This document shows, piece by piece, positions 37,325 through 47,008 of a stretch of DNA of 50,397 bases. A program made the translations under genes and the position numbers. The notes under the pieces are model-generated. The model saw only the letters and a program-made list of their open reading frames with translations. It searched no databases and was not told the DNA's origin. Location of the stretch: positions 1 to 50,397 of the forward strand of contig DXIG01000092.1 of the NCBI GenBank assembly GCA_019112985.1, in the 5' to 3' direction. The DNA is from Candidatus Butyricicoccus stercorigallinarum. GTDB lineage: Bacteria > Bacillota > Clostridia > Oscillospirales > Butyricicoccaceae. How positions within the stretch are numbered: position 1 is the first letter of the stretch; each line of letters begins with the position of its first letter.

Positions 37325-37369
37325 CAGCGAACCGGCTGCCCGTCAGCCGCGTTCGCTGTTCTTTTTTTG
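37325..37369. terminator. terminator hairpin between convergent genes
   Basis: AGCGAACCGGCTGCCCGTCAGCCGCGTTCGCTGTTCTTTTTTT. Confidence 0.85.
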
Positions 37370-38377
37370 CCCGCGCAGCGCGCAGCAGGCGATGAGCAGG
37401 CCGCTGAGCAGGACGAACAGGTAAAAGCTCACGCCGCGGCTGAGCAGCATCGCGTCGGGCAGCGCCGCCGCCGGGAACACCGCGCCGAACAGCAGCAGAA
37501 ACGTGCCTTCGCTGGCGCCGACCGCGCCGGGCAGCGGCAGCGAGGAGACCGAGACAAACAGGACGGCTTGCAGCGAAAACACCGTGAGGAACGGGCACGG
37601 CGGCAGCGCGAGCGACCGCGAGACCAGGTAGGGGATGCTGTAAAACGCCGCGATCTGCACGGTGGTCACCGCGAGCACGGCCAGCAGCGTGGCGGGATTT
37701 TTTTGCAGAAAGGCTGCGTTGCGCCGGTACAGCGCGAGCTGTCCGTTCAGCTGCTGCTCAAGGACGGCGGCTTTTTTGCTGCGCAGCGCGCGCAGCAGGC
37801 CGCAGAGCGCGCGGATCAGCGCGTGCGACAGCCGGCGGGAAAACATGGCGGTCAGCGTGAGCAGCAGCAGCGCGAGATTGAGGCCGCCGCCGAGGGCGAA
37901 CAGCCAGCGAAACGGGCTTCGGATGAGCTGCGCGGACTGCGCCCAGAACCCCATGGCGGCAAAGGCGACGGTCACGGTCTGGAAGGAGGAGAACTGCGTG
38001 AGCAGCGCGAGCGTGCCGCAGGAGGCCGGGATGCGGTCGCGGTGCATGGCGTACAGCTGCATGGGCTGCCCGCCGCTGGCGGACGGCGTGACCGAGCTGA
38101 AAAAGAAGCCGGTCATGGCATAGCGCACCGCCTGCGGCACGGTGCAGCGGCAGCCGAACAGGCGCAGGCAGCGCCGCAGGTTGAGCGCCTCGCACAGCAG
38201 GAACACGCACATGCAGCCGGCGGCGAGCGCCAGCCAGCGCAGGCGGACGCCGCGCAGGGCGGCGAGCAGCTCGGGCAGGTTCTGCTCGCGCAGCAGCAGG
38301 AAAAAGGTCAGGGCGATCAGCCCCACGAACAGGGCGAGTTGCGCCAGCAGGCGCTTGAGCGAGAAGTTATGTTCCAT
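37343..38377 (-). CDS. lysylphosphatidylglycerol synthase TM region / flippase-like membrane protein
   Basis: Multi-TM; FFFSSVTPSASGGQPMQLYAMHRDRIP and SLPLPGAVGASEGTFLLLFGAVF motifs of UPF0104. Confidence 0.87.
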   Translation of the reverse strand: MEHNFSLKRLLAQLALFVGLIALTFFLLLREQNLPELLAALRGVRLRWLALAAGCMCVFLLCEALNLRRCLRLFGCRCTVPQAVRYAMTGFFFSSVTPSASGGQPMQLYAMHRDRIPASCGTLALLTQFSSFQTVTVAFAAMGFWAQSAQLIRSPFRWLFALGGGLNLALLLLTLTAMFSRRLSHALIRALCGLLRALRSKKAAVLEQQLNGQLALYRRNAAFLQKNPATLLAVLAVTTVQIAAFYSIPYLVSRSLALPPCPFLTVFSLQAVLFVSVSSLPLPGAVGASEGTFLLLFGAVFPAAALPDAMLLSRGVSFYLFVLLSGLLIACCALRGQKKNSERG

Positions 38378-39050
38378 AGTGATTCACCGTATCAAAGCGG
38401 AAGCCCGCGCGTTTCCAGTCGGGGAGGACGGCGCGCAGCGCCGCGATGGTGCGCGCAGGCGCACCGTTTGCGCCGCGCCCGTCATGCAGGCAGAGAATGT
38501 CGCCGCCGCGCGTGCGGCGGCGCAGCTTTTGCGCGATTTCGTCCGCCGTCGTGTCGCCGCGCCAGTCCTCTGCCATGACGTCCCACAGTACCGGCGTCAG
38601 GCTGCGGCGGCGCAGCGCGGCGAGGCAGGCGAGGTTCCAGTGTCCCCACGGCGCGCGGTAATAGCGCGCGGGCGCGCCCAGCTGCTGTAAGATGCAGGCG
38701 GCGCGGCGCAGGTCGCGGCAGGTCTCTGCCGGGGGCTGGAGCATGCCGCTCCGGTGGCGGAGCGCGTGCAGCCCGACCAGATGCCCGTCGCGCTGCATGC
38801 GGGCGATCAGCGCCGGATGCCGCTGCGCGGTCTGCGCGACGACGAAAAAGCTCGCGCGGACATTGTGCGCCGCGAGCAGGTCGAGCAGCTGCGGCGTGTA
38901 CACCGGGTCGGGGCCGTCGTCGAAGGTCAGATACAGCGTGCGGTTTTCCTGTGGGCGGCGCAGGCGGTGCACCAGCTTGCTGCCGTAGGTCGGCACGACG
39001 CTGTAGCACAGCGCCGCCGCGCCCAGCGTGCCAAAAAACAGGGGATTCAT
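38367..39050 (-). CDS. polysaccharide deacetylase family protein
   Basis: LYLTFDDGPDPVYTPQLLDLLAAHNVRASFFVV, GHLVGLHALRH, YRAPWGHWN. Confidence 0.93.
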   Translation of the reverse strand: MNPLFFGTLGAAALCYSVVPTYGSKLVHRLRRPQENRTLYLTFDDGPDPVYTPQLLDLLAAHNVRASFFVVAQTAQRHPALIARMQRDGHLVGLHALRHRSGMLQPPAETCRDLRRAACILQQLGAPARYYRAPWGHWNLACLAALRRRSLTPVLWDVMAEDWRGDTTADEIAQKLRRRTRGGDILCLHDGRGANGAPARTIAALRAVLPDWKRAGFRFDTVNHYGT

Positions 39051-40123
39051 GATAACATCCCTCCTTCTCCGTAATAGGCGGCGGGGCATGGCTCCTCCAG
39101 ACTGCTCCGCAGCCGGGCCATGCTGCGCTTCATCGCGCGCAGGCGCTCCCCGTCGCGCAGCAGCGCGCAGATATCCTGCGCCAGGTCGTCCCGCTGTGAC
39201 CAGCGCACGCAGCCGAGCTGTTCGCGCTCGATGTAGCGCGCGTTGCGCATCTCCTGCATCAGAAACGGCTGATAGATGTACAGCGGTGTGCCGGCATGGA
39301 TGGCCTCAAACGTCGTGATGCCGCCGGGCTTGGTCAGCAGCAGGTCGGCGCGGCGCATGTAGTCCGCCACGCGGTCGGTGTAGCCGACGGCCGTGATGTT
39401 GGGGTAGCGGTCGCGCAGGCGCGCGTACAGCGCCCGGTTTTTGCCGGTGAGGACGGTCAGATGGACGTCCTCAGCCTCGTTGAAGGCGGACAGGACGGCG
39501 CCGGCGGACGGCAGAAGCCCCAGCCCGCCGCCCATCACCAGCAGTTCCGCCCGTTCGCCGGTGCGGGGCGCCTCCGGCGCGCGCAGAAAGTCGCGCCGGA
39601 CGGGGATGCCGCAGACGTGGATGTGTGCGGCGGGCACGCCCTTTTCCATCAGCTCCTGCCGCGTCTCGGCCGCGCCGACGAAATAGGCGTCGGTGTGCGG
39701 CACAATCCACTCGTCCTGCGCGCCGATGTCGGTGATGTAGGTGTAGAGCGGCAGGTCCGCGCCGCGCAGCTGCTTGTAGGCGGAGACGCACTGCGAGCAG
39801 AGCGGGAGCGTGGACACGACGAGATGTGCGCGGTGCGCGCGCAGCAGCCGCTCGACCCGGCGGGCGACCATCGCCTGCACGGGCAAAAGGCCGCAATGGC
39901 TGGCGGTGCGGTTGAAAAAGTTGTAGAGGGCGGAGCAGTGCCGCACCATCTGGGCGAACGAGCGGTAAATCGCGCCGCTCAGGTGCGGGAACAGCTCGTC
40001 CACGAGATCGACGACCTGCACCTCGGCCTGCGGGTTGACCGCGCATAGCTGTTGGCGGATGGCTTCCGCCGCGCAGCAGTGCCCCATGCCGAAGCGGCCG
40101 GTTAAAATCAGAATGCGTTTCAT
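39047..40123 (-). CDS. MGDG synthase-like family glycosyltransferase
   Basis: ILILTGRFGMGHCCAAEAIRQQL, TYITDIGAQDEWIVPHTDAYFVG, LLVMGGGLGLLPSA, LTKPGGITTFEAIHAGTPLYIYQ; ATGA overlap with the deacetylase gene. Confidence 0.9.
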   Translation of the reverse strand: MKRILILTGRFGMGHCCAAEAIRQQLCAVNPQAEVQVVDLVDELFPHLSGAIYRSFAQMVRHCSALYNFFNRTASHCGLLPVQAMVARRVERLLRAHRAHLVVSTLPLCSQCVSAYKQLRGADLPLYTYITDIGAQDEWIVPHTDAYFVGAAETRQELMEKGVPAAHIHVCGIPVRRDFLRAPEAPRTGERAELLVMGGGLGLLPSAGAVLSAFNEAEDVHLTVLTGKNRALYARLRDRYPNITAVGYTDRVADYMRRADLLLTKPGGITTFEAIHAGTPLYIYQPFLMQEMRNARYIEREQLGCVRWSQRDDLAQDICALLRDGERLRAMKRSMARLRSSLEEPCPAAYYGEGGMLS

Positions 40124-40131
40124 ATCGGTTA

Positions 40132-40159
40132 CAGACAGCGGGGCTGTCTGACTGCCTCC
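40132..40159 (-). promoter_or_regulatory. 8-bp hairpin located between the Shine-Dalgarno (GGAGG) and ATG of the glycosyltransferase gene
   Basis: Minus strand GGAGG-cagt-CAGACAGC-ccc-GCTGTCTG-taaccgat-ATG. Confidence 0.6.
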
Positions 40160-40185
40160 TTTCGCGGTTTGGTACAGAATACCGC

Positions 40186-40273
40186 ATAATTCTTGCGAAT
40201 CTCGCGCGAAATTCTTACGAAATTCTGTCGAAATCGTTGCAAAACGGTTGCGGAATGGTTGCAAACCGCTGTT
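40186..40273. repeat. degenerate 11-bp tandem repeat, 7-8 units (consensus approx GAAATnsTTGC)
   Basis: ATAATTCTTGC GAATCTCGCGC GAAATTCTTAC GAAATTCTGTC GAAATCGTTGC AAAACGGTTGC GGAATGGTTGC AAACCGCTGTT, consecutive with no gaps. Confidence 0.75.
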
Positions 40274-40318
40274 TCGGCCGGATTCCGGCGGCGCGCGCCT
40301 GCGGAACGGTACCATTGC

Positions 40319-40348
40319 ATTATTGTATTAGTTGATTGATACAATAAT
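40319..40348 (-). promoter_or_regulatory. 30-bp dyad ATTATTGTAT-N10-ATACAATAAT overlapping a TTGTAT-N19-TACAAT promoter-like sequence
   Basis: Perfect 10-bp inverted repeat; 19-nt spacing on minus strand. Confidence 0.55.
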
Positions 40349-40401
40349 ACAACAGGCCGCGCGCAAATGCAAGAGGGGAGGCGGAAAATTTTTTTGGAAA
40401 C

Positions 40402-46697: not shown

Positions 46698-46794
46698 GAG
46701 AAATTTCGTTAAAATTATATAGGAAAGAATGGAAAAATCGGGCGAAAATTGTGGAAGTTTTGGGTATTTGTTCAACTGCGCCGGGGCAGAAAGA

Positions 46795-46950
46795 AACCCC
46801 ACACGGCCGATGTCGCCAGATTAGTAACCTGCACGATCTGGCAGGTGGGTCCCCTATCCCGAATCGCTGCGCTTCCAACTTCCGCAGGGCGGGAGGCCTG
46901 CGCTTGAAGCGGGAACAATACTTCGGGGTCCCGTAAACTAACTGTGGGTT
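46795..46950. ncRNA. candidate structured RNA of about 155-190 nt, possibly 6S-like; strand uncertain
   Basis: Closing stem CCCACA/TGTGGG (46798-46803 with 46943-46948), inner GGGTCCCC/GGGGTCCC and TCCCG/CGGGA pairings, apical CGCTTC...CGCAGG/CCTGCG...GAAGCG hairpin, alternative stems in the 5' part; no convincing ORF. Confidence 0.4.
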
Positions 46951-47008
46951 AAAAAAAGGCGACTGTCGAACCGCGCAGGGCGCGTGGACTGAAAATCAGA
47001 GAGACCGG

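Follow-up and report, generated by a model that had tools for sequence, protein, structure and literature searches.

A DNA segment with an 11-bp period, located just upstream of a glycosyltransferase operon in Candidatus Butyricicoccus stercorigallinarum, most likely serves as an operator for a HexR/VanR-like activator of the OmpR/PhoB family. This prediction follows from the layout that the segment shares with distant hexS promoters, and from its first rank when a matrix made from those promoters is used to scan the window, the 50,397-nucleotide stretch of contig DXIG01000092.1 that was analysed. We consider it probable that the array forms the activator-binding part of a hexSDF-type promoter, and that it is read by a VanR-like response regulator encoded elsewhere in the genome (L229, on contig C141).

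The periodicity is pronounced. At positions 40186-40273 the self-match is 60% at a lag of 11 bp and 64% at a lag of 22 bp, whereas dinucleotide shuffles yield 24% ± 5% at lag 11 (z 6.7; 6.7-7.1 by autocorrelation). Not one of 20,000 shuffles attains the self-match of the array, nor does any at any period from 5 to 22, and the segment is the top 11-bp-periodic stretch within the 50 kb window. The tandem array put forward in the original prediction is therefore real and far above the level of chance. Seven of the 7-8 units originally proposed are clear, but the last one, AAACCGCTGTT, matches poorly. Because the units have drifted, Tandem Repeats Finder reports merely two short pieces of the array (40207-40234 and 40236-40265).

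Since the downstream gene, with its ATG at 40123, lies on the minus strand, this is also the functional strand of the array. In gene direction the seven units (40186-40262) read GCAACCATTCC (40262-40252), GCAACCGTTTT, GCAACGATTTC, GACAGAATTTC, GTAAGAATTTC, GCGCGAGATTC and GCAAGAATTAT (40196-40186), which places the half-sites GCAACC (twice), GCAACG, GACAGA, GTAAGA, GCGCGA and GCAAGA in 11-bp phase. The three upstream units carry GCAAC rather than AAGA and may be weak or decayed sites. The core pair GACAGA-N5-GTAAGA (40208-40229, minus strand), a predicted dimer site for a HexR/VanR-like regulator, provides the sole match to GNMAGANNTTCGYAAGA in the window, where 0.05 are expected. Directly after GCAAGAATTAT come GCGG and the −10-like element TATTCT (40176-40181, minus strand), such that exactly 9 bp separate the promoter-proximal half-site GCAAGA (40191-40196, minus strand) from the −10. 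There is no sigma70-type −35, and a consensus scan finds no complete sigma70 promoter here, as expected of an activator-dependent promoter. Direct half-sites arranged head to tail with about 11-bp spacing, at a fixed position relative to a −10 whose −35 is missing or weak, are traits expected of an operator for an OmpR/PhoB-family activator, and the array shows them both.

The operon that would be controlled by this promoter matches hexSDF of Clostridioides difficile gene for gene (PMC10128005). Specifically, it encodes on the minus strand a hexS-like glycosyltransferase (39047-40123; MGDG_synth, PF06925, 1.6e-20, and Glyco_tran_28_C, PF04101, 6.8e-8), a hexD-like polysaccharide deacetylase (38367-39089; PF01522, 1.2e-25) and a hexF-like, flippase-like membrane protein (37343-38377; LPG_synthase_TM, PF03706, 7.3e-36). 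This gene order is common to most related loci. In C. difficile, the amino-glycolipid HNHDRG and resistance to daptomycin and bacitracin both require hexSDF, which in turn depends on the two-component system HexRK; when hexRK is deleted, hexSDF transcripts fall about 12-fold in RNA-seq and the signal of a PhexS reporter falls 26-fold (PMC10128005).

Between the promoter and the first gene lie a Shine-Dalgarno-like sequence, AAAGGAGG (40155-40162, minus strand), with a similar position in five orthologs, and, between this sequence and the ATG, a hairpin with an 8-bp stem, CAGACAGC-CCC-GCTGTCTG (40132-40150, minus strand). Across five species 97.5% of stem cells are paired, but no compensatory change is present, so the RNA structure is unproven by covariation; the leader is predicted to fold at −15.8 kcal/mol (z −1.6). 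Folding at 40124-40162 may bring the Shine-Dalgarno sequence close to the glycosyltransferase start codon. Farther upstream, TTGCAT-N17-TATTAT (40344-40372, minus strand) is a possible distal promoter, with similar elements in the same relative place in three orthologs of the genus (L007-L009) and perhaps in one distant locus (L254). It is overlapped by a palindrome with 14-bp arms (40315-40352; arms 40315-40328 and 40339-40352) that resembles the binding sites of GntR-type repressors. The only Rfam match in the window is a 6S RNA (46792-46984, minus strand; RF00013, 60 bits).

The arrangement at the array is conserved in the same genus. Four orthologous promoters (L006-L009) carry GACAGA-N5-GTAAGA, then, 23 bp on, a [GA]CAAGA or GCAATA half-site, 9 bp and a −10; GACAGAATTTCGTAAGA is unchanged in three of them (L006-L008). 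Orthologs have TATACT, TATCCT or TATGCT at the position of TATTCT here. The corresponding spacing between half-sites is 22 bp in the window species rather than 23 bp, which places all its units in one register. Upstream of the orthologs the lag-11 z is 3.3, 3.5, 3.8, 1.5 and 3.0 (L006 through L010), with in-phase upstream units recognisable in L006-L009 and four clear units in L010; most orthologs at greater distance show only a weak lag-11 signal. Thus, relatives keep the 11-bp phasing with fewer recognisable units. The spacing of half-site, N9 and TANNNT recurs in L006-L009, in five loci at the level of the family (L013-L017) and at distant hexS promoters. Among the family-level loci, L013 and L016 share the layout of the same-genus orthologs, and L014, L015 and L017 combine units near 11-bp spacing with the N9 rule.

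A class-wide search, extended to flanking regions, recovers hexS genes in several other clostridial families, where the layout half-site-N5-half-site-N16/17-half-site-N9-TANNNT recurs at hexS promoters. In eight of these promoters (L248, L252-L256, L259 and L260) a pair of TTAAGA/TTTAGA-type half-sites is followed by a further half-site at 23, 23, 22, 23, 23, 23, 23 and 23 bp, respectively, and then by N9 and a TATAAT-like element. The locus L248 has the order glyA-hexS-hexD-hexF-hexR-hexK of the published C. difficile cluster. From these eight promoters, none of which comes from the genus of the window, we trained a two-block matrix. The array ranks first among 201,308 placements in the window (26.4 bits; next 22.4), a result for which the layout had been chosen beforehand and the letters had not, since the eight promoters were aligned by eye to the arrangement known from the same-genus orthologs. 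The maxima from 100 shuffled windows average 6.7, and the highest, 22.6, does not reach the array. The same matrix has its best match at the hexS promoter in most same-genus and same-family loci. Together these promoters define a predicted HexR box, comprising a half-site pair, 22-23 bp, a half-site, N9 and a −10, and the array contains all of these parts. The geometry, the conservation and the motif scans agree, and they support the original proposals that the phasing is under selection and that it represents the direct-repeat format of OmpR/PhoB-family regulators upstream of an operon for an MGDG-synthase-like glycosyltransferase.

Which protein would read such a site? The contig that carries the window (C75) encodes no OmpR-family response regulator, so the adjacency of regulator, kinase and operon seen in C. 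difficile does not extend to this genome, which has seven such regulators in total. One of these is the VanR-like regulator on C141, located beside a 764-aa histidine kinase. Its best match is the NCBIfam model vanR_ACDEGLN at 248 bits, below the 350-bit cut-off; the same model is also the best match, again at 248 bits, for the regulator adjacent to hexSDF in L248. In three distant loci (L248, L257 and L258) a response regulator and a kinase adjoin hexSDF, and among the seven regulators of this genome the VanR-like one is closest to all three (176-189 bits; next 141-153). Its identity to the adjacent HexR proteins is 40%, a figure that does not by itself prove orthology.

The promoter of this regulator's own gene carries related half-sites. 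In eight species it mostly reads TTMAGA-N5-TTAAGA-N9-TATnnT, and in two further species (L114 and L116) it has TTCATA-N5-GTAAGA, 23 bp, GTAAGA, N9 and a TA-element, which is the hexS layout. With a half-site matrix from the eight promoters, the array is second of about 100,000 placements, and first when the −10 is included. Among the response regulator promoters inspected in this genome, only that of the VanR-like regulator carries an AAGA-type half-site. Elsewhere in the genus, TTAAGA-type half-sites at N9 also precede another OmpR-family regulator in three genomes (G004, G005 and G007), which means that the half-site by itself does not single out one regulator. The gene of this other regulator has TAAAG[AG]-N5-TTAAGA-N9-TATAAT in its own promoter (L165, L167 and L168 in G004, G007 and G005, respectively).

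Enterococcal van operons offer a further comparison. The VanR consensus (T/C)CGTANGAAA(T/A)T (PMC4405338) is matched at 10 of its 11 specified positions by TCGTAAGAATTT (40209-40220, minus strand), and less well by the other units; the window holds six matches with one mismatch where 1.4 are expected, two of them within the array. As with VanR boxes, where an OmpR/PhoB-family activator recognises units in direct repeat, the array consists of direct repeats and its candidate regulator is VanR-like; the resemblance lies in the half-site. Unlike the VanRG arrangement, in which three motifs lie upstream of a −35 (PMC4405338), the promoter here lacks a −35 and precedes no van resistance operon. The OmpR-family protein RR_1586 of C. 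difficile also binds an 11-nucleotide motif in direct repeat (PMC6222199), a format similar to that of the array, although the regulator and its regulon differ from those proposed here.

The same promoter logic might be used by another OmpR-family regulator (L070, L071, L072, L074 or a DraR-like envelope-stress regulator). The genome encodes seven OmpR-family regulators, N9 spacing is common to several families of regulator, as with TTTACA for PhoP and TTCACA-N5-TTCACA-N9-TAAAAT in the own promoter of L072 (G000:C24), and a commentary on C. difficile places DraRS upstream of HexRK and hexSDF (PMC10601699). Nevertheless, we regard this assignment as unlikely, given that the AAGA-type half-site is confined to the VanR-like gene among the regulator promoters inspected in the genome, and that the regulators adjoining hexSDF in other loci are closest to this same protein. 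The original prediction had instead noted a likeness to a Pho box and speculated on a phosphate-responsive switch, a reading that the data do not support and that we now judge very improbable. The geometry of the array is indeed that of pstS promoters in the same genomes (TTTACA-N5-TTTACR-N17-TTTACA-N9-TAnnnT; in the window species ATTTACAAACATTTTACG...CTTTACAAGCCGGGGGTAGAAT), whose common layout is half-site-N5-half-site-N17-half-site-N9-(−10), and CTGTC occurs on the opposite strand of GAAATTCTGTC. However, the half-site of the clade is TTTACA, whereas the array and the HexR/VanR-like type have GYAAGA/TTAAGA, and CTGTC would point away from the gene. Moreover, the array ranks 22-26 in the window with a Pho half-site matrix, in contrast to 1-2 with HexR/VanR-like matrices, and 6-7 with a negative score when the full Pho composite matrix is used; hexSDF of C. 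difficile, finally, is under HexRK and not under the phosphate system (PMC10128005). The pstS-like proteins of the genus (L057, L051-L062) look circularly permuted relative to TIGR02136: in one open frame, the segment that corresponds to positions 163-294 comes before the one that corresponds to 37-157.

Two further explanations were considered. Phasing near the helical repeat, with recurring A/T-rich steps, could reflect intrinsic bending or an UP-like element that needs no sequence-specific protein, but hardly any A-tract of at least four nucleotides occurs in the array, and what is conserved are specific hexamers at a fixed distance from the −10 rather than A-tracts; this account is scarcely credible to us. 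Alternatively, the array might be coding, as an N-terminal extension of the glycosyltransferase in the frame that is open to 40315, or it might act as an RNA-level repeat in a 5′ leader, since a long transcript from the distal promoter-like element at 40344-40372 would include it. A unit of 11 bp is not a multiple of three, the matches of related glycosyltransferases begin at MKR or MKH, the ortholog L009 has no open extension, and relatives retain the −10 that immediately follows the array, all of which make a coding or RNA-level role highly implausible.

An activator operator of the HexR/VanR-like type might occur at other genes as well. Six species of the genus have GTAAGA-type half-sites ahead of a VanZ-family gene (PF04892). 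In five of them the sites read GTAAGA-N5-GAAAGA and mostly stand in 11-bp register with a −10-like element. In the sixth (G010, C1:349429-349493; L163/L196) the vanZ promoter contains a near-perfect array of about seven GTAAGAAATCT-type units ending in GTAAAT-N9-TATACT. The genome of the window species holds a second array (G000:C53:9753-9828, L230; z 5.9) with six units and TTAAGA half-sites: TTAAGAAAATC, TTAAGAAAACT, TTAAGAAAATG, GAAAGAAATTT, GTCGGCTGTTT and GTAAGAATTAT. It lies close to the end of a contig and has no clear gene beside it, and the neighbourhood of its upstream transporter, traced in relatives, is not conserved. The vanZ promoters and this array hint at a possible small envelope regulon. 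A generic motif is not enriched over a reversed control, either in this genome with three mismatches (54 matches versus 77) or over the genus with two. A motif as short as the half-site therefore cannot by itself delimit a regulon. Exact matches to two half-sites plus N9 and TANNNT number seven in the genus, not above the reversed control; four of the seven are the VanR-like regulator's own promoter. We tentatively entertain the possibility that HexR/VanR-like regulators of the genus control a small envelope regulon comprising their own genes, hexSDF and the VanZ-family gene, through operators that have grown more than once into long arrays of 11-bp units, with seven in the window, about seven at the G010 vanZ gene and six in C53. 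Unit number might then set the dose response, with the shift from 23 to 22 bp aligning the units in one helical register.

In the mechanism we propose for the hexS-like promoter, a phosphorylated OmpR/PhoB-family regulator, likeliest the VanR-like protein encoded with its histidine kinase on C141, would bind 11-bp half-sites head to tail along the same helical face. The half-site nearest the gene would lie at about −27 to −22, with 9 bp between it and the −10, where it would replace the missing −35 and recruit RNA polymerase. The ancestral layout would have been two adjacent half-sites, one more at 22-23 bp, 9 bp and a −10, and the window species would have expanded this to seven half-sites strictly phased at 11 bp, an expansion that should make activation more cooperative or graded. 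The outputs would be a glycosyltransferase, a deacetylase and a flippase that presumably make and display an envelope-protecting amino-glycolipid. Compared with the HexRK-hexSDF system of C. difficile (PMC10128005), the three genes and their order are the same, whereas the regulator-kinase pair is not adjacent here and the operator has seven half-sites rather than about three.

The control principle itself is ordinary; what is apparently new is the predicted HexR box and its expansion to seven units. A literature search for a HexR binding site found none described, and the array thus provides a concrete candidate site for this class of regulator. The spacing rule, in which the last half-site precedes the −10 by 9 bp, is common to several response regulator families in this group and offers a means of locating further regulons. 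The findings also connect an unusual amino-glycolipid operon, linked in C. difficile to tolerance of daptomycin and bacitracin, with related operons in several other clostridial families.
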